Below are positions 1 through 28,998 of a stretch of 39,444 nucleotides of DNA, in pieces. The stretch's first letter is position 1. Every line of letters starts with the position of its first letter. A program made the translations under genes and the position numbers. The notes below the pieces were generated by a model. It was not told where the DNA came from. It saw nothing but the letters and a program-made list of their open reading frames with translations, and did no database searches. Source of the stretch: a virus; the IMG/VR virus record IMGVR_UViG_3300028908_000004, positions 1-39,444 of that record. One strand, written 5' to 3'.

Positions 1-79
1 TGAAAACTTCCACCATTTCTCAGGTTCCCCAATATGTTTAGTAGCAATATTTTTCATATACCAAAACGGTAATTGTGGA
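1..79. repeat. 79-bp terminal direct repeat, left copy
   Basis: These 79 bases are identical to the last 79 of the window (39366-39444). They lie inside a reading frame that is uninterrupted across the joined ends, so the molecule is circular or circularly permuted. Counting the repeat once gives 39,365 bp. The odd length and position inside a gene fit a k-mer overlap left by the assembler better than a physical packaging repeat; that choice is inference. Confidence 0.9.
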
Positions 80-561: not shown

Positions 562-569
562 AAAGCCTC

Positions 570-7901: not shown

Positions 7902-7905
7902 CAGA

Positions 7906-8883
7906 TTATCTCCTATGTGCACCAAACCCACCACCCGGAGATGCGTTGCCAGATGCGGGTTCGTACTTGCTAACAATATTTTCTGCTATTTTCTTGAAAT
8001 CATCCATTGTTAAGTCTTTCTTCCCAGTTAAAGCCTGCCCAGCTTTTCTAAACAAACCACTTAACCCAAAGAATTGTTGATCTTGGAATTGTAAACTCAA
8101 CTCATATCCTTTATATAACCATTCCTGAACTAATCTTACTTTATCATCATGAGTTAAGTTTGCATCTTTTGTTACAGATTGAATGAAATCTTCCGAATGT
8201 TGATTCCATCGTTTAAATGCGTTATCTTGCCACGGCCAAGTACCATCACCTTGTTTGTAAGATACCCAATCTTTCATTTGATTTTCATACTTTCTGGCAG
8301 TATCCCTAGACACATTCTCTCTAGTATTCTGTCTTACAATATTAGCCTCTTGCGTTGCTTGTTCTAACTGTGTATTAATACTACTTGTATTTATATCATA
8401 CGTTGTCTGTATATTCCGCTCGGATTCTTCTTGCTGACTTTGAACCTGTTGCGTAAGAAATTCATAAGACGCTTGCGGACTCCCCTTGATTCCACTTGTT
8501 CCTACTGCAGCTTGAGCACTTCCTAGAAGCTGAGTACCTTTTAGTACCTGTTGCTCATGCTGAAACATCTGATTAGTATACCAATTGTTTAGTCGAGCAA
8601 TATTAATGTCATGCCACTGTTGAGCCGATTGTTCCATAAAATCTGCCCGTCTATATCCCTGCTTGCCTTCATATTTAACACCAATATCCCACACTCCAGT
8701 AAAAGGTTGCAATTGATACGGCTGAATCTGCCCTAATTGATTAGCTATCTGCCAAAACTGTAGAAAACTATTCACACCGCCAAGAATATTGGAAATTGCA
8801 GGATTATAACCAGTTGATGGCGGATTATACGCATAAGAGGTATCCGTGTAATATCCTGTATCCCCATATAAATATCCAGCCAT
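7906..8883 (-). CDS. Internal virion protein, gp14-like position
   Basis: The 325-residue product has a Tyr/Gly/Pro-rich N-terminus, a long Gln-rich helical middle (about 90-215) and a C-terminus ending GGGFGAHRR. The mix of a flexible N-terminus and Gln-rich helices is common in podoviral proteins that leave the capsid with the DNA. It follows tail tube protein B by 1 bp and precedes the 669-residue protein by 4 bp. No enzymatic motif is visible. Confidence 0.62.
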   Translation of the reverse strand: MAGYLYGDTGYYTDTSYAYNPPSTGYNPAISNILGGVNSFLQFWQIANQLGQIQPYQLQPFTGVWDIGVKYEGKQGYRRADFMEQSAQQWHDINIARLNNWYTNQMFQHEQQVLKGTQLLGSAQAAVGTSGIKGSPQASYEFLTQQVQSQQEESERNIQTTYDINTSSINTQLEQATQEANIVRQNTRENVSRDTARKYENQMKDWVSYKQGDGTWPWQDNAFKRWNQHSEDFIQSVTKDANLTHDDKVRLVQEWLYKGYELSLQFQDQQFFGLSGLFRKAGQALTGKKDLTMDDFKKIAENIVSKYEPASGNASPGGGFGAHRR

Positions 8884-12142: not shown

Positions 12143-13102
12143 CTAGCTAACAGCAGATTCGTTAATAATACCCTCAGCCAAATGTATAGGCATTGTCTGG
12201 AACATAGTTACAGGCCTACCAAAAATATCTTTGGCTGTATAAAACCCATTCTGCTTGTTCATTGCAGCAACAGCCAACTGAGCATAAACATCCCTGTTGA
12301 CATACATCACTGCACCACTCCCCATGTTCGGAAGCTTTGCCATTGCCTCAACCACTTTATCAATATCCAAAGGAGTAGTACCAGAAGTATCAATATTGGC
12401 AATTCTCTGAACTGCCCTATCATCTTCAACGGCAAGACCCCACCAAATCTTAAAGTGATTGACATAAGCCAACATTTCACCATTTCCATCAGGAGCATCA
12501 ACGAGTTTAACTCCCAAATCCTGATCCTCAATTCCAAGATTCTTGTTGCTCTTTGGATAGATCAGATATGCAGTCTCTTCGCCCCACTCGATTATCCATG
12601 CAGAAGTAAGATACGAACCACTCCCGCCGTTATCAGTAACATTATCAAGAGAAAGCGAGTTATATCTTGTAGCAAGACCGTCAATATAAACTGGATTGCT
12701 AGCACTGTTACCATAAAGCAAATCTGACATCATGGAATTAGAAAGACCAAGCAGAAATCCCTTAACTCTCTTAAATCGCTCTTTCTTTGGATTGGGCGAA
12801 ATATCAATCAGAGCCTTGTCAGCTTTAGCAAGCGCTTCTAACATCTCTATCGCCTCACGCTTGTTTTGAGATGTAGGTTCCTCATCACTTATTCCACCAT
12901 TAAACTGTCTTCGTGTCCCACTAGGCAAAGAAGTTCTTATCTGCACAACATGGGACATTGTATCATTCGCCTCAACCCAAGGCGCATCTTTCAAGAATGG
13001 GTTCTTTTTCTCAAGAACCTCTGCTATGGAAATAACATTCCCGCCTACAAGACCTTTGGCCTTTTCGACAAGAGTGTAATTGGTAGCTGTTAAAGTAGCC
13101 AT
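12143..13102 (-). CDS. Major capsid protein
   Basis: The 319-residue product has the expected size and position for a HK97-fold shell protein. Features include an early VEKAKGLVGGN/ISIAEVLEKKNPFLKDAPW segment, SLPSGTRRQFNGG, and a C-terminal strand with GRPVTMFQTMPI. It sits between the scaffold and cement genes and has a good GGAGG site 8 bases before the ATG. Assignment rests on family resemblance and gene order. Confidence 0.85.
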   Translation of the reverse strand: MATLTATNYTLVEKAKGLVGGNVISIAEVLEKKNPFLKDAPWVEANDTMSHVVQIRTSLPSGTRRQFNGGISDEEPTSQNKREAIEMLEALAKADKALIDISPNPKKERFKRVKGFLLGLSNSMMSDLLYGNSASNPVYIDGLATRYNSLSLDNVTDNGGSGSYLTSAWIIEWGEETAYLIYPKSNKNLGIEDQDLGVKLVDAPDGNGEMLAYVNHFKIWWGLAVEDDRAVQRIANIDTSGTTPLDIDKVVEAMAKLPNMGSGAVMYVNRDVYAQLAVAAMNKQNGFYTAKDIFGRPVTMFQTMPIHLAEGIINESAVS

Positions 13103-13946: not shown

Positions 13947-14258
13947 TCATTCTATATTAGGTTGAACGCTCATTAAGCGATCAACTATATCCCAAATATG
14001 TGAAGCATCCCAAATGCCTAGCTTATATAAAAGCGTTTTAGCATAATTGCTTAACGCCTGCTCTTCAGGTGTTCCTATTTGCATTGAAAACATCTGAAGA
14101 TCATTTAAAATATCAGTTAATACTACTCGTCCCTCTGGAGTATCAAAAACCTTCCGGTAAAGAACTACCAGCTTCTGGCGTTCCTGTTTCGCCTCCGGGT
14201 TCGCCAACAAGTCCGGCAAGCCCTGAAACTCCTTGCGGGACGGTACCTTTTTGCTCAC
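13947..14258 (-). CDS. Bbp19-like protein with GTG start
   Basis: The chosen GTG start at 14258 is preceded by AAGGGGGG at 5-base spacing; an in-frame ATG 24 bases upstream has no such site. The 103-residue protein contains YRKVFDTPEGRVVLTDIL, characteristic of the Bbp19 family encoded between portal and scaffold in BPP-1-like phages. It overlaps the portal 3' end by 116 bp in another frame. Function is unproven; the context suggests head assembly. Confidence 0.7.
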   Translation of the reverse strand: MSKKVPSRKEFQGLPDLLANPEAKQERQKLVVLYRKVFDTPEGRVVLTDILNDLQMFSMQIGTPEEQALSNYAKTLLYKLGIWDASHIWDIVDRLMSVQPNIE

Positions 14259-15849
14259 GTTGCCCCCCTTGCATTTGCGCATTTTGTAACATTTGCATTG
14301 CTTTAGCTCGATTTTCTCTTATCTTGTCTATCTCAGCTTTTGGCCTAATCAAATCAATTGGCATCCCATTTCTTTCGGCCAAAGCTATAGCTAACTTATC
14401 ACTATCAATAACATCTAAAATATCAGGATAGAACTGCGTTAAAGGTAATAATTGATTAAGTCCTTCAGTAATCCCTTGCGTTCCCTGTAATCTCTTCTGT
14501 GCTTGTGCCATTGTTCCAATATAATCAATTCCTAATCCTTGCCCAATTAACCTAATATACTCTTTAGGAGGCGGAGGAATACGGCCAGCTCTAATTCCAA
14601 GAATTAAAGTTTTCTGCAATATCGGGTCTAAAAACTCACTATTAATTCTTCCCATTACCGTACCTAAAACGGCAGCCTTTTCGCCAGCTAATTCTATGAC
14701 CTCTCTAGCAGTCATTTCTGTCTTAGCCTGAGCTATCCTAGAAAGCAATAAGAAGAAATCAACCTTTAACTGTTCTCTAATACTATTTCTGAGATTCATT
14801 ACGATGTTTTCGGCTATAGGATACTGAACGCCTGTTAAAATAGGTTTAATCGTTCTAGCCGGATTCGTGTAAGGGATCATTCCGTTAGGCACTAAAGGAA
14901 GTTCAAATCTCATTTCAGCCGGATACTGCATAGGAGGCTTAACAGCAATTTGTCCAGCCTGCAAGAGGTCTTTCCCGATAGCATTTAACCGTATAATATC
15001 TGGCAAAGCATCCCATACATAAGACCGACCATATTCCTCCGATGTCGCAACTTTGAATCTCCAAACTACATACGGGAATTCATCATATCCGCTCTCTTTT
15101 AAAACCAAAGCCTTACCATCGGTTCCGCTAAAATCCAATAAGATATATAATGAAAGCCATGGTTTGTTCTTAGAATCAATTCGTTTTGGATCACGCAAGA
15201 TTCTAGGTTCCACAATATGAAGAACTTCATACTCTTCAAACGGAAATTCTTTAAGCCGCTTAAGTTGCTCCGAATTAAATGGCTTTTGGCCGAATTCCTC
15301 CAATAATTGTTTACCTGTCATGTAAAAATGTCTATAAACTGTATCTACTTTCCCATGTTTATTTGTAGCTATGTAAGCCTCTTTAGGATGTCTTGGCATA
15401 AAATTAAGTGCTTTAATGTCTTCATCTTCCTCAACATATAAAATAGTCGTTCCTATGCTAGACGCATCTGCAATACAAGTCGCAGCAGCATCATAGAAAT
15501 TAGATTGCTCTAGTTCTGCATAAATGCCTCTTTCTGCCTCATTAAGCCAAGACTTGACTGGTCTTTCGTCTTGAAGTCTATAATCATGAACAGTCAATCT
15601 AAACCATGGAGAAGCTCGTGAAATAATATATCCGGTAAAAGCATCAACCATGAGAGAGTGAGCGGACAAAGCGGTACTATCATAAATATTTTTTACCCTA
15701 ATTTCAGTCTTGTCATCAAAAGCATTCCGTCTAGGATAAACATATTGAGTAATTAAATCCCAGACCTCTTCATAGAATGTACGCTTTTCTTTGAGAGACT
15801 CATATTTTGTTAGATAAGCGTCTAAATCAATTTTAGTAGTTTGTGCCAT
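14143..15849 (-). CDS. Portal (head-tail connector) protein
   Basis: The 568-residue product matches podoviral connectors in length and layout. The N-terminus (YLTKYESLKEKRTFYEEVW) is followed by TQYVYPRR and DSTALSAHSLMVDAFTGYI. The core contains YVVWRFKVATSEEYGRSYV and ALPDIIRLN, and the long clip/wing region contains LLLSRIAQAKTEMTAREV. The tail is Gly/Gln/Pro-rich. Its expected role is the dodecameric portal through which the terminase packages DNA. Confidence 0.9.
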   Translation of the reverse strand: MAQTTKIDLDAYLTKYESLKEKRTFYEEVWDLITQYVYPRRNAFDDKTEIRVKNIYDSTALSAHSLMVDAFTGYIISRASPWFRLTVHDYRLQDERPVKSWLNEAERGIYAELEQSNFYDAAATCIADASSIGTTILYVEEDEDIKALNFMPRHPKEAYIATNKHGKVDTVYRHFYMTGKQLLEEFGQKPFNSEQLKRLKEFPFEEYEVLHIVEPRILRDPKRIDSKNKPWLSLYILLDFSGTDGKALVLKESGYDEFPYVVWRFKVATSEEYGRSYVWDALPDIIRLNAIGKDLLQAGQIAVKPPMQYPAEMRFELPLVPNGMIPYTNPARTIKPILTGVQYPIAENIVMNLRNSIREQLKVDFFLLLSRIAQAKTEMTAREVIELAGEKAAVLGTVMGRINSEFLDPILQKTLILGIRAGRIPPPPKEYIRLIGQGLGIDYIGTMAQAQKRLQGTQGITEGLNQLLPLTQFYPDILDVIDSDKLAIALAERNGMPIDLIRPKAEIDKIRENRAKAMQMLQNAQMQGGQREQKGTVPQGVSGLAGLVGEPGGETGTPEAGSSLPEGF

Positions 15850-16988: not shown

Positions 16989-17642
16989 TCACAAAAAATC
17001 GTAAGGATTCCAATCACTAGACTGTTGGGGTTCAGCTATACTAATGGGCTTATCAATTCTTTCTGCGTACCATAGGGCTATACCAACAGAGAGAACTAAG
17101 TCGTCATGAATGGCATCTCTAGCCGCTTCCATTGTAAGATTCCCCTTGGCAGTCATTTCATACTTAAAATTTTGGAGTTCCTTTAAAAAATGGTCAGCTA
17201 ATCTGAGCTTCTTTGATACTTTATAAAGCCCATTTTGTAATAATATTTGTAAAACTGCAATAATATCCAATTTTGGGACATTAAATCCGGTTTCTGTAGT
17301 TCGGTACTCTAGGCCTGAAGTAAGTTTAATCAGAACAGGATTCAAGCCTTCTTCAACAAACATTTCGGCAACGGCTTCACCAACACCTGTGGCATCAATT
17401 ACTAAAGCCGATTGGCCTTTTAGAACGTGGCTATTTAGGAAATTAACCATGAACTGGACTATATCATGATATGAAGTATCAAGAGGCGGTCTATAAAGGT
17501 ATCTAGTAAGGTATAAAACCTTTTCTGGATAAAGATCATCTTGGAGCTTAGCCTCTTCTGGGTAAATAATTTTTCTCTCTGTTACAGAGATTGCTGTATA
17601 ATCATGTTTTTTGCCTAAATCAACACCAACAAAATACTTCAT
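16989..17642 (-). CDS. Large terminase subunit, nuclease half (separate gene)
   Basis: The 217-residue protein is an RNase H-fold terminase nuclease: FVGVDLGKKHDY (Asp8), LVIDATGVGEAV (Asp83) and AIHDDLVLSVGIALW (Asp180/181) supply the three acidic metal-binding positions. It lacks any ATPase motif. Its ATG overlaps the stop of the ATPase gene as ATGA, so the two halves of a normal terminase are made as separate coupled proteins. It cuts concatemeric DNA during packaging. Confidence 0.88.
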   Translation of the reverse strand: MKYFVGVDLGKKHDYTAISVTERKIIYPEEAKLQDDLYPEKVLYLTRYLYRPPLDTSYHDIVQFMVNFLNSHVLKGQSALVIDATGVGEAVAEMFVEEGLNPVLIKLTSGLEYRTTETGFNVPKLDIIAVLQILLQNGLYKVSKKLRLADHFLKELQNFKYEMTAKGNLTMEAARDAIHDDLVLSVGIALWYAERIDKPISIAEPQQSSDWNPYDFL

Positions 17643-18616
17643 ACCTTGTACTCCTCCAATATCCCTTCTACATCTTCGCCGACATCTTCTACATCTACGT
17701 CTTGATCAAACAAAGCCTCAATGTCAGTAAAAGCATTTTCTAATTGTTCATAGCTAAAAACGGAATCCTCTGTCTCTACAAACTCACACAGGTACTCTTG
17801 CCTAAACCATAGTTCCCCGAGTGAAGCTAGCTCTTCTTCTAAAAACTTCTTTGTATGCCTTGGGCTGAAAAAACAGGTAACATTAGGAAACATCTCTTCA
17901 AGCTCTTCTTTGGTGAGCTCAATAAGTCTGCCATTTACTAGTTTAAAAGGCGGTCGTACAACAACCTTATTCCAATTGATGCCATTTGTCCATTCATTAT
18001 AAAAGAATCCGCGCTTACCAAATGGCGTTGACATCAGAATTAATTCCGTATCAGCACCAACCATCATTGGCCTTACCGCTTTATAAGAGGCATCCTCCAC
18101 CCTAGACGCCTCATCAATTATAATCATATCTGGCGCAGAATAAGACCTAACACTCCTTTCTGTTCCGGGCAACGCCACGATCCTAGAACCATTAACAAAC
18201 TCCTTCTCAAATACAGTATCGTGTACTAAAGGCGGAAGGTCTTTGTCCAATCTCATAAATCCTTCCATTTTTTTCATTAGCTCGACTGACTGTGGCTGAC
18301 TCGGACAAAGGATAAGAATCAAAGCCCCCGGATGATATTTGGCTCTTTTTATTGCTTTAGAACTAATGATTGTTGATTTACCTGATTGTCTGGCACTTAA
18401 TAGAATCGTTCGCTTGTGCGTTTCGTCTAGAACGTATTCCTGCCAATCGAACGGATCAAATCCGAGAGATTTAAGGTAATCGACAGGGTCTAGAGCATCG
18501 GCCAAAGTCTTTTGAATCATGGCTTCAAGGCCATAGACACCGATTGCGTCATTGAGTTCAATTGTTTGATCTGGCTCGGCCAGTCTATTTAATCTATCTA
18601 ATCGTTTTGATGGCAT
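17639..18616 (-). CDS. Large terminase subunit, ATPase half (separate gene)
   Basis: The 325-residue protein has a Q-motif-like DWQEYVLDE, Walker A SARQSGKST (74-82), Walker B MIIIDE (164-169) and coupling motif LMSTP (194-198). It ends with an acidic tail instead of continuing into the nuclease domain. The start overlaps the small terminase gene by 23 bp. This is the packaging motor; the nuclease is the next gene, overlapping by 4 bp. Confidence 0.9.
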   Translation of the reverse strand: MPSKRLDRLNRLAEPDQTIELNDAIGVYGLEAMIQKTLADALDPVDYLKSLGFDPFDWQEYVLDETHKRTILLSARQSGKSTIISSKAIKRAKYHPGALILILCPSQPQSVELMKKMEGFMRLDKDLPPLVHDTVFEKEFVNGSRIVALPGTERSVRSYSAPDMIIIDEASRVEDASYKAVRPMMVGADTELILMSTPFGKRGFFYNEWTNGINWNKVVVRPPFKLVNGRLIELTKEELEEMFPNVTCFFSPRHTKKFLEEELASLGELWFRQEYLCEFVETEDSVFSYEQLENAFTDIEALFDQDVDVEDVGEDVEGILEEYKV

Positions 18617-19285: not shown

Positions 19286-19537
19286 TTAGAGGGAATTTAT
19301 CAACCCTATAATCTCATCATCTAACTCATACTCACTCAACTTAACTATAAGCTGTGTTAAAGTATTATCAGGTCTACACCTCAATGTATCCCCTACTCTG
19401 TAAATATACATCCTCCTAGGAGCACCAACCATCTTCAAATACTTAGCCGGAATCGATAAGTAGTATAACCCATTAGCTTTATTATAGTTTACAGCATACT
19501 TTCCATATACTTCAATTAGGTCATTTTTTAGCCTCAT
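19286..19537 (-). CDS. AbrB/MazE-like small DNA-binding protein, probably leaderless
   Basis: The 83-residue protein has a swapped-hairpin-like pattern: YNKANGLYYLSIPAKYLKMV then VGDTLRCRP, as in AbrB-type regulators. It begins the minus-strand late operon. A TTGATT/TATACT promoter ends 6 bases before the ATG, and no Shine-Dalgarno site is present, so the mRNA is probably leaderless. It could regulate the adjoining early/late boundary. Confidence 0.65.
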   Translation of the reverse strand: MRLKNDLIEVYGKYAVNYNKANGLYYLSIPAKYLKMVGAPRRMYIYRVGDTLRCRPDNTLTQLIVKLSEYELDDEIIGLINSL

Positions 19538-19543
19538 AGTAAT

Positions 19544-19572
19544 AGTATATCACATAAGGAATTATTAATCAA
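19544..19572 (-). promoter_or_regulatory. Late operon promoter
   Basis: Minus-strand -35 TTGATT (19572-19567), 17-bp spacer and -10 TATACT (19549-19544). The predicted +1 falls on or next to the A of the ATG at 19537. Confidence 0.75.
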
Positions 19573-19603
19573 GCGTAGATGTTTGTAAAACCTTAATAAA
19601 ATC

Positions 19604-19609
19604 TTGACA
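19604..19609 (+). promoter_or_regulatory. Isolated TTGACA -35-like box
   Basis: A consensus TTGACA lies just before the GC-rich island. The best downstream hexamer, TAGAAA, is at a short 15-bp spacing, so a plus-strand promoter here is only possible. Confidence 0.25.
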
Positions 19610-19630
19610 AAGCGGGTTAGGGCATAGAAA

Positions 19631-19760
19631 TTGCACGAGTGGGGAGAGATGGGTGGGTTTCCACCCCCAGTGCGTCCAACTAGCCTCCCGCCCGGTCTTC
19701 CTCCATCGTCCTAGGCCGGAAATTTTCCGGCAAATCTTGTTTCCATTGGCGCCATGGGCT
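19631..19760. other. GC-rich palindromic island, possible second structured RNA
   Basis: GCAC (19633-19636) pairs with GTGC (19670-19673), enclosing GGGTGG (19651-19656) paired with CCACCC (19661-19666). GCCGGAA (19715-19721) pairs with TTCCGGC (19725-19731) around a 3-base loop. The palindrome TGGCGCCA follows near 19747. Its G+C content is far above the flanks. Transcription strand is unknown. Confidence 0.45.
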
Positions 19761-19790
19761 ACGTGAATATGGAAGAATATACGGTTCCCC

Positions 19791-19856
19791 GTATAAATAT
19801 GCACAAAAATGCTTCGAAATCCCGACCGGATAAAAAACCGGGAGTATAAATATGCA
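19791..19856. repeat. Two direct copies of a 13-bp GTATAAATATGCA element
   Basis: GTATAAATATGCA occurs at 19791-19803 and 19844-19856, start to start 53 bp. Each is followed by an A-rich run. The first is entered by ATACGG/CCGTAT hairpin arms; the second follows CCCG/CGGG arms. Possible binding sites or promoter elements. Confidence 0.6.
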
Positions 19857-20243
19857 AAAATAGCTCAAAATAGCCTAGAATGGCCTAAATTGCACACGGA
19901 TTGCCTAGGAATTGCACATAAAACACGCCTAAACACATCTAAACACACCTACTTCCTATACTCTCTACCAAAAACCATACCTACAACCACTTAAAAACTG
20001 TCCGAAATCACACCCAAAATCTCTCCCAGATGCACGAGAAACGCCCTAGAACGCATTTTCTAGGCTAGAGTAGTATAAACACACCACCAACCCGATAAAA
20101 ATGCTCTATGCGAAGATATTTACGTGTGAGAGTAGGGAAGAAACAAGCACAAATAAGTTGTAAACAAAGCTGAATAAAAACTGCACACAATAATAGTAGA
20201 CACGGGGAATACCCGGTACGCTTACTTGCAACAAAAACGCCGA

Positions 20244-20292
20244 ATAAATGCAAGTAAATGCAGGATTTTGGCCGAGTAAATGCGGGTAAACG
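20244..20292. repeat. Iteron-like GTAAATGC repeats
   Basis: Related units ATAAATGCAA (20244), GTAAATGCAGG (20254), GTAAATGCGGG (20276) and GTAAACG (20286) lie within 49 bp. Such short imperfect direct repeats are typical binding sites for a replication initiator. The partner could be the initiator encoded at 27156-28196 (inference). Confidence 0.5.
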
Positions 20293-20387
20293 TACCAAAA
20301 CCGAAAATAGGCGTACACCGATACATCTTTCCCGTTCCCGCTACGATTTCGCTATTTCCACACACTTAAGACACCACGATAAAATAG

Positions 20388-20409
20388 GGTGTATAAAAAA
20401 GTATACACC
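20388..20409. repeat. 8-bp inverted repeat
   Basis: GGTGTATA pairs perfectly with TATACACC around AAAAAG. There is no T tract on either side, so it is more likely a protein-binding or origin element than a terminator. Confidence 0.5.
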
Positions 20410-20449
20410 TACGATGATATTCTGAAAAGCAAACCAATTTGCACTATCT

Positions 20450-20488
20450 AAACCAGACTACACTAAACCAACTAGATTAACCAGACTA
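20450..20488. repeat. AACCAGACTA direct repeats
   Basis: AACCAGACTA occurs twice, about 29 bp apart, with a related AACCAACTAG between the copies. It is part of the A/C-rich strand-biased stretch. Confidence 0.45.
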
Positions 20489-20671
20489 ATCAAGCTATAT
20501 TAAACATACTCTAGTCTACTACATTGAAACAATAGTGTAAGAAATGAATACAAAGGAATACTCTTTCTTTTTGCCGACAAGGAGCAATTTTCAATTTTGG
20601 CCGACAACTAAAAACTTGTTAAGTAAAAGAAACCTAATCTACGAATATTTTTTTAAAAAAATAAAAAAATA

Positions 20672-20700
20672 TTGACAACATAAATAACATGTAGTATAGT
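20672..20700 (+). promoter_or_regulatory. Strong early promoter
   Basis: Consensus -35 TTGACA (20672-20677), 17-bp spacer and -10 TATAGT (20695-20700), preceded by an A/T tract resembling an UP element. Predicted start is about 20706. It drives the structured RNA and the whole hairpin-rich operon. Confidence 0.88.
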
Positions 20701-20705
20701 ATGGA

Positions 20706-21008
20706 TAGAAAAGGGAAGGGGAAGAGAGGCTGGAGGCCAGAAGGCCAAGAGCAAACCTTCCCCGGACAAGAGAAGGGCGCCCCGAGGGGCAGAGGAAGCA
20801 CAGCGACCCCGCAAGGGATCACCGTTGTGTGGAGTGGCTCTGTCGTGGTAGGGGCTGAAATAAAAGGGGAGGAGGCTAGTAGGCCGATTGAAGGGCTTTC
20901 GTGGAGAGCTCTTCAACCCGCCTATTAGTCCTGCCTTGGCTCCGGAAGTTGGATGCAATGTCCAGTCCCGGGCTTCCGGAGCTACTGCCGCACCGGGACA
21001 AAATTTTT
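20706..21008 (+). ncRNA. GC-rich structured RNA / long leader of the early operon
   Basis: About 300 nt, starting at the promoter, fold into consecutive helices. GGGAAGG (20713-20719) pairs with CCTTCCC (20756-20762), CAGAG (20790-20794) with CTCTG (20838-20842) and CACAGCG (20799-20805) with CGTTGTG (20823-20829). GCTAGTAGGC (20875-20884) pairs with GCCTATTAGT (20920-20929), enclosing TTGAAGGGCT (20888-20897) with AGCTCTTCAA (20907-20916). GCTCCGGAAG (20939-20948) pairs with CTTCCGGAGC (20973-20982). GTCCCGG (20965-20971), in that loop, can pair with CCGGGAC (20993-20999), making a pseudoknot or a terminator before AAAATTTTT. The open frame across it has no ribosome site. I match it to no RNA class I know. 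Confidence 0.75.
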
Positions 21009-21029
21009 AGAGGAGGAAGGAGGACGAGG

Positions 21030-21197
21030 ATGAGAAAATATAAAGAAGTAACTTTTTGCCCGCATTGCGGGCGAGAGACAGAATGCCATTGGGTATCCGG
21101 TGAATCTTACCATGAAGAGTGCCTCTACGAGGTACTCGTATGCTCCGTCTGCGGGGAGGAGGTGCCGCAGAGTTTTAGGTGGAAAGGAGGGGAATAA
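21030..21197 (+). CDS. Zinc-knuckle protein, 55 aa
   Basis: The first protein of the early operon begins at the ATG after AGGAGGAAGGAGG. It has two CxxC pairs (CPHC at 10-13, CSVC at 38-41) and an HEEC between them, consistent with a treble-clef or zinc-ribbon fold. The message is self-complementary: GCCCGC/GCGGGC at 21058-21072, GAGTGCCTC/GAGGTACTC at 21117-21137 and TCTGCGG/CCGCAGA at 21148-21171. Function unknown; possibly nucleic-acid binding or a host-takeover factor. Confidence 0.75.
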   Translation: MRKYKEVTFCPHCGRETECHWVSGESYHEECLYEVLVCSVCGEEVPQSFRWKGGE

Positions 21198-21198
21198 A

Positions 21199-21651
21199 AT
21201 GTATAAAGAAAGTATTTTCTCTCTTCAGGGCCTAGACAAGGCCCTTAGGAGTTTGTCCACGTCAACCGACGTGGACGTTATCTTTTCCTCCACCCTCTAT
21301 AGGGTGGAGGGGAGGAATGGGTTCCACGGCACACTTGCCGTGGAAGAGCTGAAGGGGGGGGAGATACCATCCCTCCACGCAATGGTAATCAGAAACTATC
21401 GGTGGGCACTTTTGCTCACCGATAGTGAGGTAGGCCCTGAATGGGCCGTGATCACCCCACCACCATGGTGGGGAGAGAGGGTAGTCAAGCTAATCCCGAC
21501 TACTCTCCCTATGTTTATCCAGAATCGTTTCTGGGACAAGGGACGACTTGTCCCAGAATCTAAGGTAATCATCACTCGTAAGAGAGTGGTGGTTACCTTT
21601 CCAGATGGGGGTGAATATGAACTTACCCCCATCGGGGGCCCCGACGAGTAG
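21199..21651 (+). CDS. Unknown 150-aa protein whose message is a chain of hairpins
   Basis: It starts 1 bp after the preceding stop with AAGGAGGGG upstream; longer in-frame starts lie inside the zinc-knuckle gene. The predicted protein looks beta-rich (VDVIFSSTLYRVEG, WAVITPPPWWGERVVKLIP, KVIITRKRVVVTFPDGG) and belongs to no family I recognise. Almost every base lies in a local stem (see the hairpin array). The stop codon lies inside the terminator loop. Ribosome site, length and amino-acid mix support real translation, but RNA function may be equally selected. Confidence 0.72.
   Translation: MYKESIFSLQGLDKALRSLSTSTDVDVIFSSTLYRVEGRNGFHGTLAVEELKGGEIPSLHAMVIRNYRWALLLTDSEVGPEWAVITPPPWWGERVVKLIPTTLPMFIQNRFWDKGRLVPESKVIITRKRVVVTFPDGGEYELTPIGGPDE
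21227..21633 (+). repeat. Array of twelve consecutive hairpins inside a coding sequence
   Basis: Stems in order: 21227-21245 (6 bp), 21255-21276 (9 bp, loop AACC), 21287-21310 (10 bp, loop CTAT), 21322-21345 (10 bp, loop CACT), 21365-21387 (6 bp), 21395-21426 (14 bp, loop CTTT), 21433-21447 (5 bp), 21455-21473 (8 bp), 21477-21507 (10 bp), 21529-21558 (12 bp), 21562-21599 (16 bp with two G-U), 21604-21633 (11 bp). A thirteenth is the terminator. Arms are different sequences, so this is not a tandem repeat but a series of unrelated inverted repeats. Confidence 0.9.
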
Positions 21652-21670
21652 GGCCCCTATATCTTTTTTT
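21635..21670 (+). terminator. Intrinsic terminator overlapping a stop codon
   Basis: GGGGCCC (21635-21641) pairs with GGGCCCC (21651-21657), followed by TATATCTTTTTTT. The TAG stop at 21649-21651 lies at the loop/stem boundary. Confidence 0.8.
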
Positions 21671-21730
21671 GCGCTATAGCGTACAGTACGCTACAGTACG
21701 TTATAGTGCGTTACAGTACGTTGTACTGTT
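21671..21730. repeat. Six-unit, 10-bp phased repeat with TACAGTACG core
   Basis: The block divides into six units of exactly 10 bp, with consensus TTACAGTACG and variants such as TTATAGTGCG. The last two units form the palindrome ACAGTAC-GTT-GTACTGT. One-turn helical phasing suggests cooperative protein binding on one DNA face; it could also fold as RNA. It sits between a terminator and the next small gene. Confidence 0.85.
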
Positions 21731-21759
21731 AAAAAACCTTAAACAAATAGGAGGATAAA

Positions 21760-21855
21760 ATGAAAACTATAACACAAATTGGAATAACAAATCTCGGTCG
21801 GCCAGTATTTATTCTGGCTACCAAGAACAGAGTGCATATACTGAGGGATAAGTAG
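21760..21855 (+). CDS. 31-aa peptide gene
   Basis: An ATG with AGGAGG six bases upstream opens a short frame encoding MKTITQIGITNLGRPVFILA and eleven more residues ending HILRDK. GCCAG/CTGGC arms (21801-21818) form a hairpin inside it. It lies just after the 10-bp repeat array. It may be a small regulator or a leader peptide for the hairpins that follow. Confidence 0.5.
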   Translation: MKTITQIGITNLGRPVFILATKNRVHILRDK

Positions 21856-21905
21856 GTTAAGCGGGGTGCAACTCCCCGCTATCCCTATAGGTTGCGTCGC
21901 AACCT
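21845..21905 (+). other. Intergenic double hairpin
   Basis: GGGAT (21845-21849) pairs with ATCCC (21881-21885), enclosing AGCGGGG (21860-21866) with CCCCGCT (21874-21880). AGGTTGC (21889-21895) then pairs with GCAACCT (21899-21905). The next gene's ribosome site follows 15 bases later. It may control read-through or mRNA stability. Confidence 0.6.
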
Positions 21906-21935
21906 TGATAAAAACTTTAGTACGGAGGTACAAAA

Positions 21936-22367
21936 ATGGATCTTGAAAGAGCATTGAAAAACCTAGAAGAGCGGAAAAGGTTAACAGAGAAGGGGAAGAA
22001 AGAGCTAGAACAGGTCTTTTCTCTTCTCCAGAAAAAACTCTCTGGAGAAAATCTTACTCTTCTTTCCAACAAACATGTGCCCCTAAAATGGGCACACTGG
22101 ACTGGAGAAACCCATATTTATGGGGATACTTCACACCCGGACAGCCCGGGTGTAAAAATAGGTACTATCGACGGCGTCGTAGGCCTATGGGAACCGTCCG
22201 ACTACTACGGCATGGATCGGTTTATCCCGACCTACGAAATTACTTACATTTCTTGGCCGAGATTAGCTGAATCACTTCAGGATTTTATCGATCAGCTTGC
22301 CAATCTTCCTCTTCCTACTGAGGAAGTGAACAAGCTAGAACAGATTAGAAAAATCCTAGAAAAGTAG
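21936..22367 (+). CDS. Unknown 143-aa protein with hairpin-rich message
   Basis: A helical N-terminus (DLERALKNLEERKRLTEKGK) leads to a beta-rich middle with HIYGDTSHPDSPGVKIGTID and a helical end. The start has ACGGAGG. Hairpins within the gene include TTCTCCAGA/TCTGGAGAA (22024-22049), TGTGCCC/GGGCACA (22076-22096), ACACCCGG/CCGGGTGT (22133-22153), CTGAA/TTCAG (22267-22280) and CTTCCT/AGGAAG (22311-22326). The family is not recognised. Confidence 0.72.
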   Translation: MDLERALKNLEERKRLTEKGKKELEQVFSLLQKKLSGENLTLLSNKHVPLKWAHWTGETHIYGDTSHPDSPGVKIGTIDGVVGLWEPSDYYGMDRFIPTYEITYISWPRLAESLQDFIDQLANLPLPTEEVNKLEQIRKILEK

Positions 22368-22389
22368 GGGCTGTGCCCCTACTTTTTAT
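22362..22389 (+). terminator. Intrinsic terminator
   Basis: AAGTAGGGGC pairs with GCCCCTACTT in a perfect 10-bp stem around TGT, followed by TTTAT. The TAG stop of the preceding gene lies within the stem. Confidence 0.85.
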
Positions 22390-22407
22390 TCTACCTATGA
22401 GGAATTT

Positions 22408-22437
22408 TACAGTACGTTTCAGTACGTTGTACTGTCA
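22408..22437. repeat. Second 10-bp phased array with TACAGTACG core
   Basis: TTACAGTACG, TTTCAGTACG and TTGTACTGTC follow each other without gaps, ending in a partial copy of the same palindrome as the first array. As at 21671, the array stands between a terminator and the ribosome site of a short gene, so both mark the head of a module. Confidence 0.85.
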
Positions 22438-22466
22438 AATGAAACTAAATAAACAAGAGGGAGAAA

Positions 22467-22565
22467 ATGCAAATACAAAATTTTAACAGAGCATTAGCCA
22501 TAGAAGTATTAGGCGTATTTAACGGGGTATATATGTACCGGCAAGTTCCGTCGGGGAAGTCGTAA
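22467..22565 (+). CDS. 32-aa peptide, truncated module start
   Basis: GAGGGAG precedes an ATG encoding FNRALAIEVLGVFNGVYMYR and a short tail. The segment resembles the N-terminus of the 25133 product (KAQNILCAFQGIYM) and an internal stretch of the 22565 product (KIKAVCSIFGDVYM). Its TAA overlaps the next ATG as TAATG. It looks like a remnant of a module broken by recombination, or a coupled leader peptide. Confidence 0.5.
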   Translation: MQIQNFNRALAIEVLGVFNGVYMYRQVPSGKS

Positions 22566-23212
22566 TGCAAAATCCAATAAATGCTCTAAAATATATGTAC
22601 GGTTCAGGGGAAATTACTCCCGAACTAAACTACACAAGAAAATATGGGATCATTCCCCCAGCAAACATAGAAATAGGGGTGGACGAAAACGAGTGGGTAG
22701 TAGCTTATACTTCCCATTCTGGGAAGCTTTATGTTATCCGCCAACTCGACCCTAACAACTTTCAAATTATATACCCAGTTAATTCGTCTGTAGCGGGTGG
22801 AATAGAAGATGCAGTAAAGAAATGGGAAAATGTAAACTGGGAAAAAGTAAAAGTTGCCATTTCCAAAATCAAAGCAGTATGTTCTATTTTTGGGGACGTA
22901 TATATGCTACTTGTTGCACGCTACTTAGCGGGCTGGGAAAGTTTAGAGCAAGCTCACAACATGGCATTACGCAAAACACGAGCTTGTGAAGAGCCATACG
23001 GTGCATACACGGGAGAACTCCCGCAAAATGCACAGAAAGAGATTATAAATAGTCTTCATTTGCCTATAAAAGATGGGGAAGACTTTATCATCTATTATGC
23101 GTATGGAGACTATTTTATATTACGTATGGTAAACCATAATACCTTGGAATTTATATATAAAGTAAGATATTCAGAACTATCTGAGGAAATAAGAAAAATG
23201 GCAAAAGAATAA
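22565..23212 (+). CDS. Unknown 215-aa protein of duplicated modules
   Basis: Residues about 38-77 (ENEWVVAYTSHSGKLYVIRQ, then FQIIYPVNSSVAGG) match the C-terminus of the 25133 product. Residues about 97-203 repeat the whole module (helix KIKAVCSIFGDVYM, AHNMALRKTR, AYTGEL, LPIKDGEDFIIYYAYGDYFI). It is thus one and a half modules. Hairpins CTTCCCA/TGGGAAG (22710-22726) and CGGGA/TCCCG near 23010 are present. The start overlaps the preceding stop. Function unknown. Confidence 0.72.
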   Translation: MQNPINALKYMYGSGEITPELNYTRKYGIIPPANIEIGVDENEWVVAYTSHSGKLYVIRQLDPNNFQIIYPVNSSVAGGIEDAVKKWENVNWEKVKVAISKIKAVCSIFGDVYMLLVARYLAGWESLEQAHNMALRKTRACEEPYGAYTGELPQNAQKEIINSLHLPIKDGEDFIIYYAYGDYFILRMVNHNTLEFIYKVRYSELSEEIRKMAKE

Positions 23213-23226
23213 AATAACAAAACTTA

Positions 23227-23245
23227 GCCCGCTTTTATAGCGGGC
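23227..23245 (+). terminator. Intergenic 7-bp hairpin
   Basis: GCCCGCT pairs with AGCGGGC around TTTAT. The following bases are A/T-rich but not a clean T tract, so it may be a weak terminator or an mRNA-stabilising hairpin. Confidence 0.45.
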
Positions 23246-23268
23246 ATATAAAAATAAGGAGAACCAAA

Positions 23269-24027
23269 ATGGAAATAACAAGAGAAATAAAGAAAAATTA
23301 TCCTTATACACTGGAAGTTGTAGCAAAAGAGGGAACCATGCTTGAAACCTTTTGCTATGAAAAAACTTTTATAGGCTCAGAAATAGAGCCTATAAAAATA
23401 TATGAACTTAATACAGAATATGAGAGGTCGATGTTTTCCGACCTTATTACTAGAAAAGGATGGCTGGTGGCTCAAGAAGGACAATACATCGTAATTGAAA
23501 CAGCCGAGAAGAATAGGAAAAACAGAGACTTTGAAAATGAAACAGAAAAATGGTGGAGTGCATATACTCTTGAACCCCTCAAAGAAGAAATGCAAAAAAA
23601 TGGCAAATATTCATTATCACTCCTTTCAGGCAACTTCACAGAATGGGAAACCCCAAAAGAAATTTCTATAGGCTCAGAAATAGAACCTATAAAATTCTAT
23701 GAGAATGAGTTCCAAAGATACCCATACGTAGAATGGGGCGACGGGTGGACATATATAGTCCAAAGGGACTATGGATATATAATCCGCCAAAACGAAGTAT
23801 ACTATATAATAGTACAAATAAGAAAAGAAGAACCTCCAACAGAATATAGAAAACCGGAATACTCTTACTCTATAGTATTCTGTGAATTAACTATGTTCTC
23901 AAAACTTAGAGACAAAGAAGCTAAAATAGAATTTTTCAAAGTAAAACACAGATATGGGGAAATCTTTTCCAAAAAACTATTAAGAACCCCTAAGCATTTA
24001 ATAGGGGAAAGGATAAAATACCTTTAA
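23269..24027 (+). CDS. Unknown 252-aa protein with two GSEIEPIK repeats
   Basis: Two related halves each contain a YPYTLEV/YSLSLL strand, a GSEIEPIK-(I/F)-YE motif (about residues 36-45 and 137-146) and a GW/Y-rich strand with QEGQYIVIE or RQNEVYYIIV. It is a paralogue of the 24372 product. Each motif is encoded by a hairpin with a 7-base loop: 12 bp at 23367-23397 and 9 bp with one mismatch at 23667-23691. GGAG precedes the ATG. No known family; predicted all-beta. Confidence 0.75.
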   Translation: MEITREIKKNYPYTLEVVAKEGTMLETFCYEKTFIGSEIEPIKIYELNTEYERSMFSDLITRKGWLVAQEGQYIVIETAEKNRKNRDFENETEKWWSAYTLEPLKEEMQKNGKYSLSLLSGNFTEWETPKEISIGSEIEPIKFYENEFQRYPYVEWGDGWTYIVQRDYGYIIRQNEVYYIIVQIRKEEPPTEYRKPEYSYSIVFCELTMFSKLRDKEAKIEFFKVKHRYGEIFSKKLLRTPKHLIGERIKYL

Positions 24028-24040
24028 TCAGGAGGACAAT

Positions 24041-24361
24041 ATGAGTAGAATTATTAATCTTACACCACACGAAGTAAATATTTTCGTTAAGGGGCAACGT
24101 GCCTTAGTTCTGCCGGCAAGTAACGATCCAGTACGTTTAAGCGAGAAAATAGAACAAGTCGGGGAGATTAACGGAATTCCTCTTTATAGGGTACAGTACG
24201 TTTTAGACAGGCCGCTTCCCGAACGACAACCGGATACTTTTTATGTTGTCAGCCGGCTGGTAAAGGATCACGCCCCTGACAGAGACGACTTTATTGTCCC
24301 GTTCCAACTGGAGCGGGCTTTAAATGGAGCCGTAATAGGCTCTAAATCATTTGCTTTATAG
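24041..24361 (+). CDS. NLTPH-type conserved protein, 106 aa
   Basis: It begins SRIINLTPHEVNIFV, then ends YVVSRLVKDHAPDRDDFIVP and IGSKSF, the pattern of a widespread small protein family of unknown function found in phages and plasmids. AGGAGG precedes the ATG. The message carries hairpins such as CCCGTTCC/GGAGCGGG near 24298-24317 and GAGCC/GGCTC near 24330-24344. Two TACAGTACG-like words lie inside the gene. Confidence 0.72.
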   Translation: MSRIINLTPHEVNIFVKGQRALVLPASNDPVRLSEKIEQVGEINGIPLYRVQYVLDRPLPERQPDTFYVVSRLVKDHAPDRDDFIVPFQLERALNGAVIGSKSFAL

Positions 24362-24368
24362 GAGGAAT
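24336..24368. repeat. Duplicated gene-junction sequence
   Basis: The junction AATAGGCTCTAA...GCTTTATAGGAGGAA recurs with few changes at 25540-25567. Both copies place the ribosome site of the next gene at the same distance, marking module duplication within the operon. Confidence 0.65.
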
Positions 24369-24371
24369 AGG

Positions 24372-25136
24372 ATGGAAATAACAAGAACAATAGAAAAGAA
24401 CTATCCATACACGTTAAAAGTTATAACAGAAGAAAGCACGGATATAGAAACATACTACCTCGAAAAAACGCTTATTGGCTCAGATATAGAGCCAATAAAA
24501 ATATATGAAGCCATAGAAAAAGATGAAGGGGCTTTATATTCCGACTCAATCACCCGACAAGGATGGTTAATTTCCCAAAAAGGGAAATACATCCTTGTTG
24601 AAACCAAAGAACTGGACAGAATTGACAGAGACTTTCCTGACAGAACCGAAAAGTGGTGGCATGCCTATACAGTCGACATTATGACAAATCCAAGCTCCAG
24701 CCCAATCGTAGAATTTTTTACTGAAGGAACATGGGATAGACAATACAAATATTCACTAGAGGTACTTGCTGGAGAAAAAAAGGAAGCCCAATACTTTGAA
24801 GACGGATATTATGAAGAAGCAAAAGCCCCTCAAAAGCTTTTTGTTGGTTCGGAGCTAGAACCAATAGAAGTATATACGTATAAATATGAGGGATTCCCAT
24901 ATATATATGAAGGAGACAAAGACACATACACCGCAGAAAAAACCAGTGGTTATGTAATAAAACAAAAAAGAGAATATTACTTTATTCTCGCAAGGCAAGT
25001 GGGGGATAGGTATTGTAAAATAGAAGCCCCAGAAGATTGCCGGTGGGAATATGACTACTGGTTTGAGGCTTGCAAATTGAACTATCTCTCAGACTTTAGC
25101 GGGGAAATAAAAATAGAATGGGGAGGAATAAAATGA
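24372..25136 (+). CDS. Paralogue of the 23269 product, 254 aa
   Basis: The start at 24372 (MEITRTIEKNYPYT) follows GGAGGAATAGG; an upstream in-frame ATG overlaps the preceding gene's end. The layout matches the 23269 product: GSDIEPIKIYE near residue 36 and GSELEPIEVY near 159, each in a YPYTLKV/YSLEVLAG half. The codons form 10-bp (24472-24498) and 9-bp (24842-24866) hairpins with 7-base loops whose stems covary with the paralogue. Function unknown. Confidence 0.75.
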   Translation: MEITRTIEKNYPYTLKVITEESTDIETYYLEKTLIGSDIEPIKIYEAIEKDEGALYSDSITRQGWLISQKGKYILVETKELDRIDRDFPDRTEKWWHAYTVDIMTNPSSSPIVEFFTEGTWDRQYKYSLEVLAGEKKEAQYFEDGYYEEAKAPQKLFVGSELEPIEVYTYKYEGFPYIYEGDKDTYTAEKTSGYVIKQKREYYFILARQVGDRYCKIEAPEDCRWEYDYWFEACKLNYLSDFSGEIKIEWGGIK

Positions 25137-25543
25137 CGTGGAACATTCTAAATTTTAGAAGAGAGAAAGCACAAAACATTTTGTGCGCATTCCAAGGCAT
25201 ATATATGTGTATTCTCGGAGCAGAAATTAGAAATGGCAAAACACTTCGGGATGCACACAAAGTTGCCATGGTAGGAGTAGAGTATGCGAACGAAAAGAAA
25301 GAATGGTGGAATGCTTGCGCGCAGGGTGAATATGCTGGAAGTGGCGGGAAAAGAGAAGAAGAAGCGAGGATAGAATACCTAACTCTATTCTCTTTACCAC
25401 TTAGAGAAGATGAAGAATTTATTGCTTACACTTCCCATTCCAGAAAGCTGTATATTATTCATCAAATTGGAGAAGATACTTTTCAGATTATGTATCCGCC
25501 AAATTCTTCCGTGGCATCTGCCATGGAGAAAGAAGCACAATAG
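25133..25543 (+). CDS. Single-module paralogue of the 22565 product, 136 aa
   Basis: The start at 25133 overlaps the previous stop as ATGA and has GGGGAGG upstream. It contains one full module: KAQNILCAFQGIYM, a DAHKVAM helix, LPLREDEEFIAYTSHSRKLY and TFQIMYPPNSSVAS. Hairpins GCACAAAA/TTTTGTGC (around 25167-25186) and TTCTAA/TTAGAA lie near the start. The hairpin seen at the SHSGKL codons of the paralogue is not preserved here. Confidence 0.72.
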   Translation: MTWNILNFRREKAQNILCAFQGIYMCILGAEIRNGKTLRDAHKVAMVGVEYANEKKEWWNACAQGEYAGSGGKREEEARIEYLTLFSLPLREDEEFIAYTSHSRKLYIIHQIGEDTFQIMYPPNSSVASAMEKEAQ

Positions 25544-25571
25544 GCTCTAATTCGCTTTATAGGAGGAAATT

Positions 25572-25883
25572 ATGACAAACAAACAGTACGTTCAAATCAA
25601 GAAAGCTATTCAAGATTTTACAAAAAGAAGTACAGATGCTTCAGTTAACCTTTCAGCTGTAAGTGAAGCAATTAAGGGGACACCATCAGAGAATTACTTA
25701 AGCATAATATTAAATTATGTTTCTGATGGGACGGGTATAGCAATGGCTAGAATCTTCGCCTTACTAGAACCATTTGTCCCAACAGAAATCCTACGCCAAC
25801 TTGTCATAGGTGTGTGCATGGCCGTAAACCTAGCCGCAACTGACATCCCGGAATCTTTTATCACCGACATTAATTCCAACTAA
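25572..25883 (+). CDS. Last gene of the early operon, 103 aa, unknown
   Basis: A helical protein with a hydrophobic C-terminal half (PTEILRQLVIGVCMAVNLAA). It has a perfect AGGAGG site and an in-gene ACAGTACGTT word near its start. It ends against a bidirectional terminator shared with the convergent helicase gene. Few hairpins are visible, unlike the rest of the operon. Confidence 0.65.
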   Translation: MTNKQYVQIKKAIQDFTKRSTDASVNLSAVSEAIKGTPSENYLSIILNYVSDGTGIAMARIFALLEPFVPTEILRQLVIGVCMAVNLAATDIPESFITDINSN

Positions 25884-27163
25884 GCCCCGGAAGGGGCTTT
25901 TTCTTTGTCTTCAAACCTCTGGTATTCTTTATTAAACTCCACATTAATCATCTTTGTTGCCCCATCTCGATTTTTGTCTAAACATAAAAACCACTCATTC
26001 AATTTATACTCTCCCGGTTCAGAGCCCTCTTTTTTCATGTTATAAATCAAAATTGCTACATCTGCGTCTTTTTCTATCTGAGAACTTTCTTGAAAATCGC
26101 TTAGTCTCGGCCTGCGTCCATCCGCATCTCTTCTAAGCTGTGCCGTCGCTACAATAGGGATATTAAACCGCCTAGCATAATCTTTAAGGGTCTTAGAAAT
26201 ATAGGCAACCTCTTCTCTTCTCTCTAGGCCTAAATGAGGAGCATAAATAAGCTGTAGGTAGTCTATCATTATGATATCACAGTGCAGTACGGTTACAAAA
26301 TACCGGATTTTGCTAAGGACCTGATTTAAAATAAGGTTAGGCTCATCGTAGAAATATATTTTTAGTTCTGCCAGCCGGTTAGAAGTCGCCATTAGTTTAT
26401 CGAGTGATTGCTTGCCTAAAATCCCGCCAAAAATATAACCTGCTTGAATATTCCCGGAAAACGAGAGAATCCGCATCATAAGCTCTTTAATTCCGCTTTC
26501 TAAAGAAATAATCCCTATAGTACGTCCAAGTTTTGCCTGATGTATGGCAATGTTTAAAAGGAGAGTTGTCTTCCCCTCACTTGGCCGACCGCCTATATAA
26601 TACAGTCTTTGTCTAGCATCTCCAATTAAATATTTATCCAGCCCATTAATTCCGGTCTTCATTTCGAGAGTCTCTCTATCCTTTAAAACTCTAACCTCGA
26701 TTTCTTCAACAGTCTCTAATAGTGCCTCTCTAATGCTCTGCACTTTATAGATATTTGTCTCTGTCTGAATATCTTCAAGACCATGATAGACCTCTTGAAT
26801 CAATGTTGAAAGCTCACTTGACCTTAATTTAGTCTGAATCTTAGCCATTAAGTTTTCAAACTGTTTAAAGTTATAATAAGTAATAAGGTGTTGTTGATAA
26901 TATTCAAAATTGGCGTCGGTCGGAATAGAGGTAATTTTCGCAAGATAAGCGGAATATCGGCTTCCAGTACGTTCATTTAAAATTATAAGATTAGGCTCTA
27001 AGCCATCGTTCACAATTTCTATCACTGCCTTAAAGATTTCTTTGTGTAAGTCTTTGGTAAAATGTACTGCATCCAGTTTACTTTTTGCCAAAAGATCAGG
27101 ATTGTTGATTATCTGTCCTAACAGAACAGCTTCATATTCATGTAATGTCTTAATGTCAATCAT
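25880..27163 (-). CDS. dnaB: DnaB-type replicative helicase
   Basis: The 427-residue protein has the DnaB N-terminal helical domain (about 1-105), a linker, and a RecA-like core with Walker A GRPSEGKT (192-199), Walker B IIMIDYLQ (Asp301) and QLRRDADGRRPRLSDFQESSQIE. It unwinds DNA ahead of the host replisome. Its ATG overlaps the initiator gene by 8 bp, so the pair is translationally coupled. The C-terminus runs into the terminator. Confidence 0.93.
   Translation of the reverse strand: MIDIKTLHEYEAVLLGQIINNPDLLAKSKLDAVHFTKDLHKEIFKAVIEIVNDGLEPNLIILNERTGSRYSAYLAKITSIPTDANFEYYQQHLITYYNFKQFENLMAKIQTKLRSSELSTLIQEVYHGLEDIQTETNIYKVQSIREALLETVEEIEVRVLKDRETLEMKTGINGLDKYLIGDARQRLYYIGGRPSEGKTTLLLNIAIHQAKLGRTIGIISLESGIKELMMRILSFSGNIQAGYIFGGILGKQSLDKLMATSNRLAELKIYFYDEPNLILNQVLSKIRYFVTVLHCDIIMIDYLQLIYAPHLGLERREEVAYISKTLKDYARRFNIPIVATAQLRRDADGRRPRLSDFQESSQIEKDADVAILIYNMKKEGSEPGEYKLNEWFLCLDKNRDGATKMINVEFNKEYQRFEDKEKAPSGA
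25882..25903. terminator. Bidirectional terminator between convergent operons
   Basis: AAGCCCC pairs with GGGGCTT around a GGAA loop, followed by TTTCTTT on the plus strand. It ends the early operon. The minus-strand helicase frame runs through it to a TAG at 25882-25880, so the same stem lies in the last codons of that gene. Confidence 0.85.
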
Positions 27164-28386: not shown

Positions 28387-28451
28387 TGAAGCGAACGGGA
28401 TTTGAACCCGTGTCTTTTGGCATTAGGCCAAAATCGAACCATTTTCGCCCC
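28387..28451 (-). ncRNA. tmRNA tRNA-like domain without the mRNA domain
   Basis: The 65-nt RNA has a 7-bp acceptor GGGGCGA/TCGCTTC with G2-U71 and G3-U70, the latter the alanine identity pair. No D stem is present; instead there is an 11-nt D-loop region containing GGTTCGA, as in tmRNA. A 7-bp TTTTGGC/GCCAAAA helix replaces the anticodon arm and is closed by CTAAT. GAC then precedes T arm ACGGG-TTCAAAT-CCCGT, and the discriminator is A. GACnCGGGTTCAA and GGnTTCGA match the two ends of bacterial tmRNA. CCA is not encoded. The preceding gene's last ten codons and TAA lie within it. Confidence 0.72.
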
Positions 28452-28998
28452 TTATAGGATAGTACCGATTTTTCTTGCGATATATCTTATCATGCTTAAT
28501 CAAAACTCTCAAATCGAACCGGACTACATGATTCTTACTGTCTACTTTTTCATACAGCTTAAGAACTTTTGGCAAGTTTAAAAGCTCATGTACCATAAGG
28601 CCGGGGTTTTCTCTAACTATTTCTAATAGCCCGGCTCTTCTATTATGTACTTCTTCTACATCGCCAAAAGTCTCTTTTAGTTTCAATTTATAGCCTGTTG
28701 GATAAAAATGGTGTTTATAGCTGTAGATTTTTCCAGAGTCTAGTAATTCCTCGGTATAATATCTTACGTTATTCTCTGAAATATGGAGTATTTGTGCGAT
28801 TTTGGGATTGGTAATTCCCGGCCGAGAACAAATAAGTTCATATATTTTCTTAAATCTATGGTTTTCATTTATTCTTTTTTTGCCGGGATAATGAACTTCA
28901 GGTTTGATTCCGTAATAAAACTTATAGGAATCACCTGTAATTTTCTGAGGTGGATCATAAAAGCCGGCATATCTATAGTCAATTATTGCTGGAATCAT
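28423..28998 (-). CDS. Double winged-helix protein whose stop lies in the tmRNA-like RNA
   Basis: The 191-residue protein carries two winged-helix-like domains: about 50-100 (ICSRPGITNPKIAQILHISE, NNVRYYTEELLDSGKIY) and about 120-180 (LLEIVRENPGLMVHELLNLP). It is probably a DNA-binding regulator. AAGGAGAT precedes the ATG, which overlaps the upstream gene. The C-terminus GENGSILA is read from the acceptor strand, D loop and P2 of the tRNA-like domain, so RNase P cleavage would leave a message without a stop. Confidence 0.75.
   Translation of the reverse strand: MIPAIIDYRYAGFYDPPQKITGDSYKFYYGIKPEVHYPGKKRINENHRFKKIYELICSRPGITNPKIAQILHISENNVRYYTEELLDSGKIYSYKHHFYPTGYKLKLKETFGDVEEVHNRRAGLLEIVRENPGLMVHELLNLPKVLKLYEKVDSKNHVVRFDLRVLIKHDKIYRKKNRYYPIRGENGSILA

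Follow-up and report, generated by a model that had tools for sequence, protein, structure and literature searches.

The question raised by this locus is what kind of RNA is made from a near-consensus promoter that lies directly ahead of a GC-rich stretch in a phage genome, and what such an RNA might do. The window, i.e. the whole stretch of DNA analysed, corresponds to the entire viral record IMGVR_UViG_3300028908_000004 (39,444 bases) and carries a 79-base direct repeat at its ends (1-79 and 39366-39444), so that the genome is probably complete, and either circular or terminally redundant. Its gene set includes a terminase (Terminase_6N) as well as portal-like and capsid-like proteins whose relatives occur in other phages; by these matches the virus is a dsDNA tailed phage. 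The structural genes run leftward, and the promoter at 20672-20700 opens a rightward operon. The ATPase and nuclease-like parts of the terminase are encoded by two genes (17639-18616 and 16989-17642, minus strand), as is also the case in L003. A tRNA-like Rfam match (28387-28451, minus strand; 33.3 bits, above the gathering score) was not called by ARAGORN and overlaps the end of an open reading frame (ORF) at 28423-28998. Among 299 genomes, all from one phylum, no match to a host was found. The nearest phage terminase comes from a Thermus phage, but a thermophilic host was discarded as an idea when amino-acid composition, a rough index, pointed to about 37 C. Neither the DnaB-like helicase nor the protein of ORF 24041-24361 had relatives in viral contigs.

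The promoter is of the sigma70 type and is formed by TTGACA (20672-20677), a 17-bp spacer and TATAGT (20695-20700), on the plus strand. It scores 11 of 12, which makes it the best site within 19400-26000; sites this good number three in the whole window against 1.3 expected, and thus the consensus match on its own lends modest support, to which a similar promoter in a second phage (see below) can be added. The sequence that follows has a GC content of 59.7% (20701-21000) compared with 37.6% genome-wide, which confirms the original prediction of a GC-rich RNA directly behind this promoter. Transcription is expected to start at about 20707. A frame of 75 amino acids (20701-20928) crosses the region, but its ATG lies upstream of the expected start, so that the frame could not begin at that ATG on this transcript, and it has no ribosome site, as had been claimed. 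A conserved protein in this frame, named beforehand as one of two findings that would speak against this view of the RNA, did not emerge, there being no Pfam match.

The RNA of about 323 nt that would begin at this promoter (20707-21029, plus strand) is predicted to be highly structured, with z values from -4.1 to -5.2 depending on the limits chosen. The segment 20703-21010 has a minimum free energy of -138.3 kcal/mol (z -5.2), a stability equalled by none of 100 shuffled sequences, and 20707-21029 one of -137.5 (z -4.1); the energy differs from that of shuffled sequence by about 18%, and the minus strand of the same region gives z -3.5. In the predicted fold, a first hairpin of 7+3+4 bp (20718-20763) contains the helices 20718-20724/20757-20763 and 20735-20738/20743-20746, and is followed by a small helix (20779-20782/20787-20790) and by a hairpin of short helices (20802-20839). 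The remainder forms a domain (20841-21000) whose closing stem (20841-20855/20987-21000) holds two long arms, one at 20866-20936 (helices 20875-20884/20920-20929 and 20888-20900/20904-20916) and the other at 20938-20983 (20938-20950/20971-20983). The helices originally proposed from the letters alone recur at their places in this fold; at 20939-20982 the 10-bp stem pairs exactly, and it reaches 13 pairs when G-U is counted. An H-type pseudoknot or a terminator had also been proposed here. The complementarity on which the former depends is present, since the loop GTCCCGG (20965-20971) can pair with CCGGGAC (20993-20999), a 7-nt match found in 1.7% of shuffles. In the minimum-energy fold, CCGGGAC is instead paired with 20841-20849, so that this pairing and the pseudoknot are alternatives, and the pseudoknot is a possible structure; the terminator was not borne out, as the end of the stretch is not listed by a terminator scan.

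The RNA could not be assigned to a known class. A search of the whole window against Rfam 15, which includes GOLLD, ROOL, OLE, tmRNA, 6S, RNase P and the known riboswitches, gave no match to this stretch at gathering score; at E values up to 5, the region 20500-22000 gave weak matches only, far under gathering scores, and no Rfam aptamer was found in the RNA. A fold that beats all 100 shuffles, and the lack of a match to any Rfam family, including those large phage RNAs that had been suggested for comparison, support the description of the RNA from this promoter as structured and unclassified. The comparative search in related phages was less productive: no DNA relatives were found in phages or plasmids, the exact degenerate pseudoknot pattern did not occur in viral contigs, and a covariance model of 20841-21000 (R1) recovered nothing but its own sequence in 746 kb, made up of the window and related loci, and in 15 records. 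Without relatives, no covariation stands behind the particular fold of this RNA. Short matches to an intergenic hairpin of the second phage were rejected, because they did not exceed those of shuffled sequences (65 of 300).

Whether this is a free RNA or a leader had been left undecided. No terminator was listed by the scan at the end of the stretch, and a strong Shine-Dalgarno and an ORF of 55 amino acids (21030-21197) follow directly, so that a leader is the simplest reading; judged by this arrangement, the RNA at about 20707-21029 is most likely the untranslated leader, of about 320 nt, of a phage message. That the RNA acts on its own, as a free, structured non-coding RNA or as a riboswitch-like switch, is unlikely: the compact predicted domain at 20841-21000, the two alternative partners of CCGGGAC and the lack of a protein frame would suit it, while the missing terminator, the ribosome site and ORF immediately downstream, the failure to find relatives and the existence of a second phage that does without the leader all argue against it. 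The original prediction had further set the RNA apart from a hairpin-rich operon that it might tune. The evidence suggests rather a single property common to leader and operon, since a structural excess, stronger than that of the leader and absent from that account, runs on into the downstream coding sequences.

This excess was measured by exchanging codons among synonymous positions within each gene, which separates RNA structure from protein sequence and codon usage; the operon genes were tested at two span settings and two lengths, and the z values vary somewhat between them. The first gene (21030-21197), zinc-ribbon-like (Zn_Ribbon_1, E 1.8e-5, just under the cut-off), has a synonymous z of -1.8. 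The second (21199-21651; 150 amino acids, no known product) has a z of -10.3 and consists of near-continuous hairpins, about a dozen in a row, with stems of up to 16 bp; with dinucleotide shuffling, 21199-21672 gives z -13.6 and an energy about 57% from that of shuffled sequence. Its protein has a single match of 34 residues (in L004), which is chance-like. Past this gene the excess is weaker and continues for 2-4 kb, through ORFs at 21936-22367 (143 amino acids, hairpin-rich; z -6.1) and 22565-23212 (215 amino acids, moderately hairpin-rich; z -3.1), both without known product, and through two paralogues with an IGSEIEPIK motif, at 23269-24027 (252 amino acids; z -4.8; motif hairpins 23365-23399 and 23664-23694) and 24375-25136 (z -5.2; motif hairpins 24472-24498 and 24839-24869). 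All of these genes lie on the plus strand. Structure predictions for two of the operon proteins were of low confidence (pLDDT 57 and 38). Units of the CAGTACGTT type with small palindromes are repeated in two intergenic gaps of the operon (21677-21729 and 22410-22436).

In a scan of the whole genome, kilobase 21-22 has a mean z of -3.5 and most of the genome lies near -0.3, so that the excess is found mainly within 20.7-25.1 kb. The other genes of the window are mostly within 2 standard deviations in the synonymous shuffle, with a few weaker excesses. Among leftward genes, weaker values occur at 13947-14282 (z -3.7) and 12143-13102 (z -2.8) of the window and at 19783-20724 (L157:5783-6724; z -3.6) of the second phage, all on the minus strand, and include the capsid-like gene of both phages. 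Long stems number 34 in 11 genes, whereas 40 synonymous shuffles give 7.8 +/- 2.8 and never more than 14. The paired probability is 0.31-0.32 at start codons and 0.58-0.60 in gene bodies; mRNAs often show little pairing at their start codons, and this contrast is weak support for the main reading (see below).

Two hairpins on the plus strand of the operon resemble terminators: GGGGCCC-9-GGGCCCC, with seven T after 6 nt (21635-21672), which is absent from the scan list because its loop and the position of its T run fall outside the rule, and a 12-bp hairpin with a T-rich tail where ORF 21936-22367 ends (22360-22392). These hairpins make it attractive to regard the leader as a processive antitermination RNA, comparable to put of phage HK022, that would fold immediately behind the polymerase and modify it to read through them. 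The position just downstream of an early-type promoter would agree with this, as putL of HK022 is located directly behind PL and needs no phage protein for its action (PMC9378689). But put RNAs are of about 70 nt with two stem-loops (PMC9378689), whereas about 323 nt and more domains are present here, and in the second phage a stronger terminator-like hairpin occurs with no such leader; a put-like role is improbable. That hairpin (L155:4296-4440, in the rightward operon of the second phage) is very strong, with about 30 bp in two parts, eight T at its end and z -9.9.

The second phage was found with a profile of the two paralogous operon proteins, which led to one further phage, G010 (IMGVR_UViG_3300028908_000019). 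Shared between the two are an operon gene of 82% DNA identity, a portion of a tail gene and a few small genes; the protein of ORF 23269-24027 is 78% identical to its counterpart, the second operon gene of G010 encodes a distant relative of the IGSEIEPIK family, and no matches to the window's operon proteins were found for the other three of the first four operon genes of G010. No match to the window terminase was found in G010. A stretch in the tail-fibre-like gene is 89% identical between the two (window 1-1806, G010 6403-8208) despite terminases without detectable relationship, which suggests that they have a common host. The rightward operon of G010 opens with TTGACA-17-TATACT just ahead of hairpin-rich genes and lacks a long leader; in the order of transcription, its first four genes give synonymous z values of -5.2, -9.4, -3.3 and -6.6. 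In both phages, the excess becomes weaker the farther a gene lies from the start site (Spearman 0.88, p 0.0016 with 9 genes; 0.75, p 0.005 with 12 genes). In a survey of related loci, in which 1161 of 2091 randomly ordered genes were covered, z never fell below -5, and the excess per base always stayed short of that seen in the five strongest operon genes; as only 14 shuffles were made per gene, these z values are rough, and it is fairer to compare the excess per base.

Sequence changes within the hairpins give a mixed picture. Seven alignable copies of the IGS(E/D)(I/L)EP motif are present across the two phages, and the cells of its hairpin are 90.5% paired; three pairs are changed on both sides (e.g. 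ATA..CCT vs ATT..CCA) with the protein unchanged. In the control, 92 of 500 shuffles reach the observed number of double-changed pairs, on perfect pairs alone three of the seven copies are no better than synonymous chance, and an eighth, diverged copy has its hairpin in another register. Between the orthologues 23269-24027 and L155:6001-6831, 20-31 predicted pairs are broken and 2-4 are doubly compensated, so that in this weaker gene most of the individual pairs that vary are not conserved. Selection thus seems to maintain hairpins as such more than individual pairs.

Watson-Crick pairing in the stems is mostly perfect, and for this reason the opposite strand folds with nearly as low an energy. 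This would be expected if the palindromes mattered as DNA, e.g. as extruded or single-stranded hairpins near an origin or at DNA entry, with the RNA structure a by-product, and the wobble pairs do not tell RNA from DNA (17 G-U to 14 A-C, compared with 201:268 in shuffles, p 0.20). Against such a role, which is assigned a low likelihood, the hairpin sequences are all different and thus offer no common protein site, translation starts are less paired, and in both phages the excess starts at the promoter and fades along the direction of transcription. The same gradient, with the perfect stems, could also fit a mutational process without function, in which template switching, perhaps linked to transcription near the promoter, perfects quasi-palindromes and makes double changes in one event. 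Such a process would have to be confined to one operon in two phages with reading frames and ribosome sites left intact; we know of none that makes quasi-palindromes at such density, and this explanation is very improbable.

The main reading, to which a probability of roughly 0.4 is given, is that the operon yields an early transcript selected for consecutive hairpins, that the leader is its non-coding 5' part, and that this folding protects the message. It draws on the excess in the leader, the excess over synonymous shuffles, its repetition in a second phage, the gradient that starts at the promoter and, in one repeated coding hairpin, double compensatory changes. The first 1-2 kb next to the promoter, leader and coding sequence alike, would be selected to fold into local hairpins as they are made. 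Folding during emergence would leave little single-stranded RNA for host RNases, RNA-cleaving defence systems or Rho, and protection would be needed most by the part of the transcript made first; the message would meanwhile still be translated, its start codons being more open than its gene bodies. Selection would then act on RNA rather than on DNA, the operon would be early, and the benefit would be that the message made first is spared by nucleases specific for single strands, by RNA-targeting defence or by Rho-dependent termination. Both the weakening of the excess away from the promoter and the open start codons agree with protection, as they do with other readings. A broader and more doubtful proposal, put forward tentatively, is that in some dsDNA phages synonymous choices turn the early genes nearest the promoter into near-continuous arrays of RNA hairpins. 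These would armour the transcript against decay or RNA-targeting immunity, less so with distance from the promoter, and the leader would be the non-coding front plate of this armour. If true, the message itself, beyond the proteins that it encodes, would be part of phage survival in the first minutes in the cell, and counter-defence could be sought at synonymous sites. A structure scan based on synonymous shuffling can reveal signs of function in genes without known protein relatives.

No earlier report of such a hairpin operon was found in the open-access literature, which is weak evidence of novelty. The leader resembles GOLLD, ROOL and OLE (PMC12286853) in being a large structured RNA of bacteria or their phages, and differs from them in having no Rfam match and in looking like the leader of a coding transcript. 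Compared by description with HK022 put, it is likewise a structured RNA just behind an early phage promoter and before terminator-like signals, but is four to five times longer and is followed by coding sequence that is structured too. Stem-loops at the 5' end are able to stabilise bacterial mRNAs, as in the papA and aprE leaders (cited in PMC3997798), in which, as here, structure precedes the ribosome site; unlike those leaders, which are single stem-loops, structure here runs on through whole genes. For natural phage genomes, a published set gives a median departure from shuffled energy of about 3% (0.0324, PMC11409064), compared with about 57% (21199-21672) and about 18% (leader) here, the methods being different. 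By analogy, the nearest known kind is GORS, summarised from a 2004 description by later papers as pervasive folding above shuffled controls through coding sequence (cited in PMC11409064 and PMC6563262). As in GORS, the folding energy of the operon is below that of controls shuffled in sequence order; unlike GORS, which is genome-wide and belongs to viruses with RNA genomes, the excess is found in a dsDNA phage, is limited mainly to one operon at 20.7-25.1 kb, is strongest next to the promoter and takes the form of short consecutive hairpins. With neither an RNA genome nor a genome-wide extent, the hairpin operon is not GORS, but it may work in a GORS-like way.
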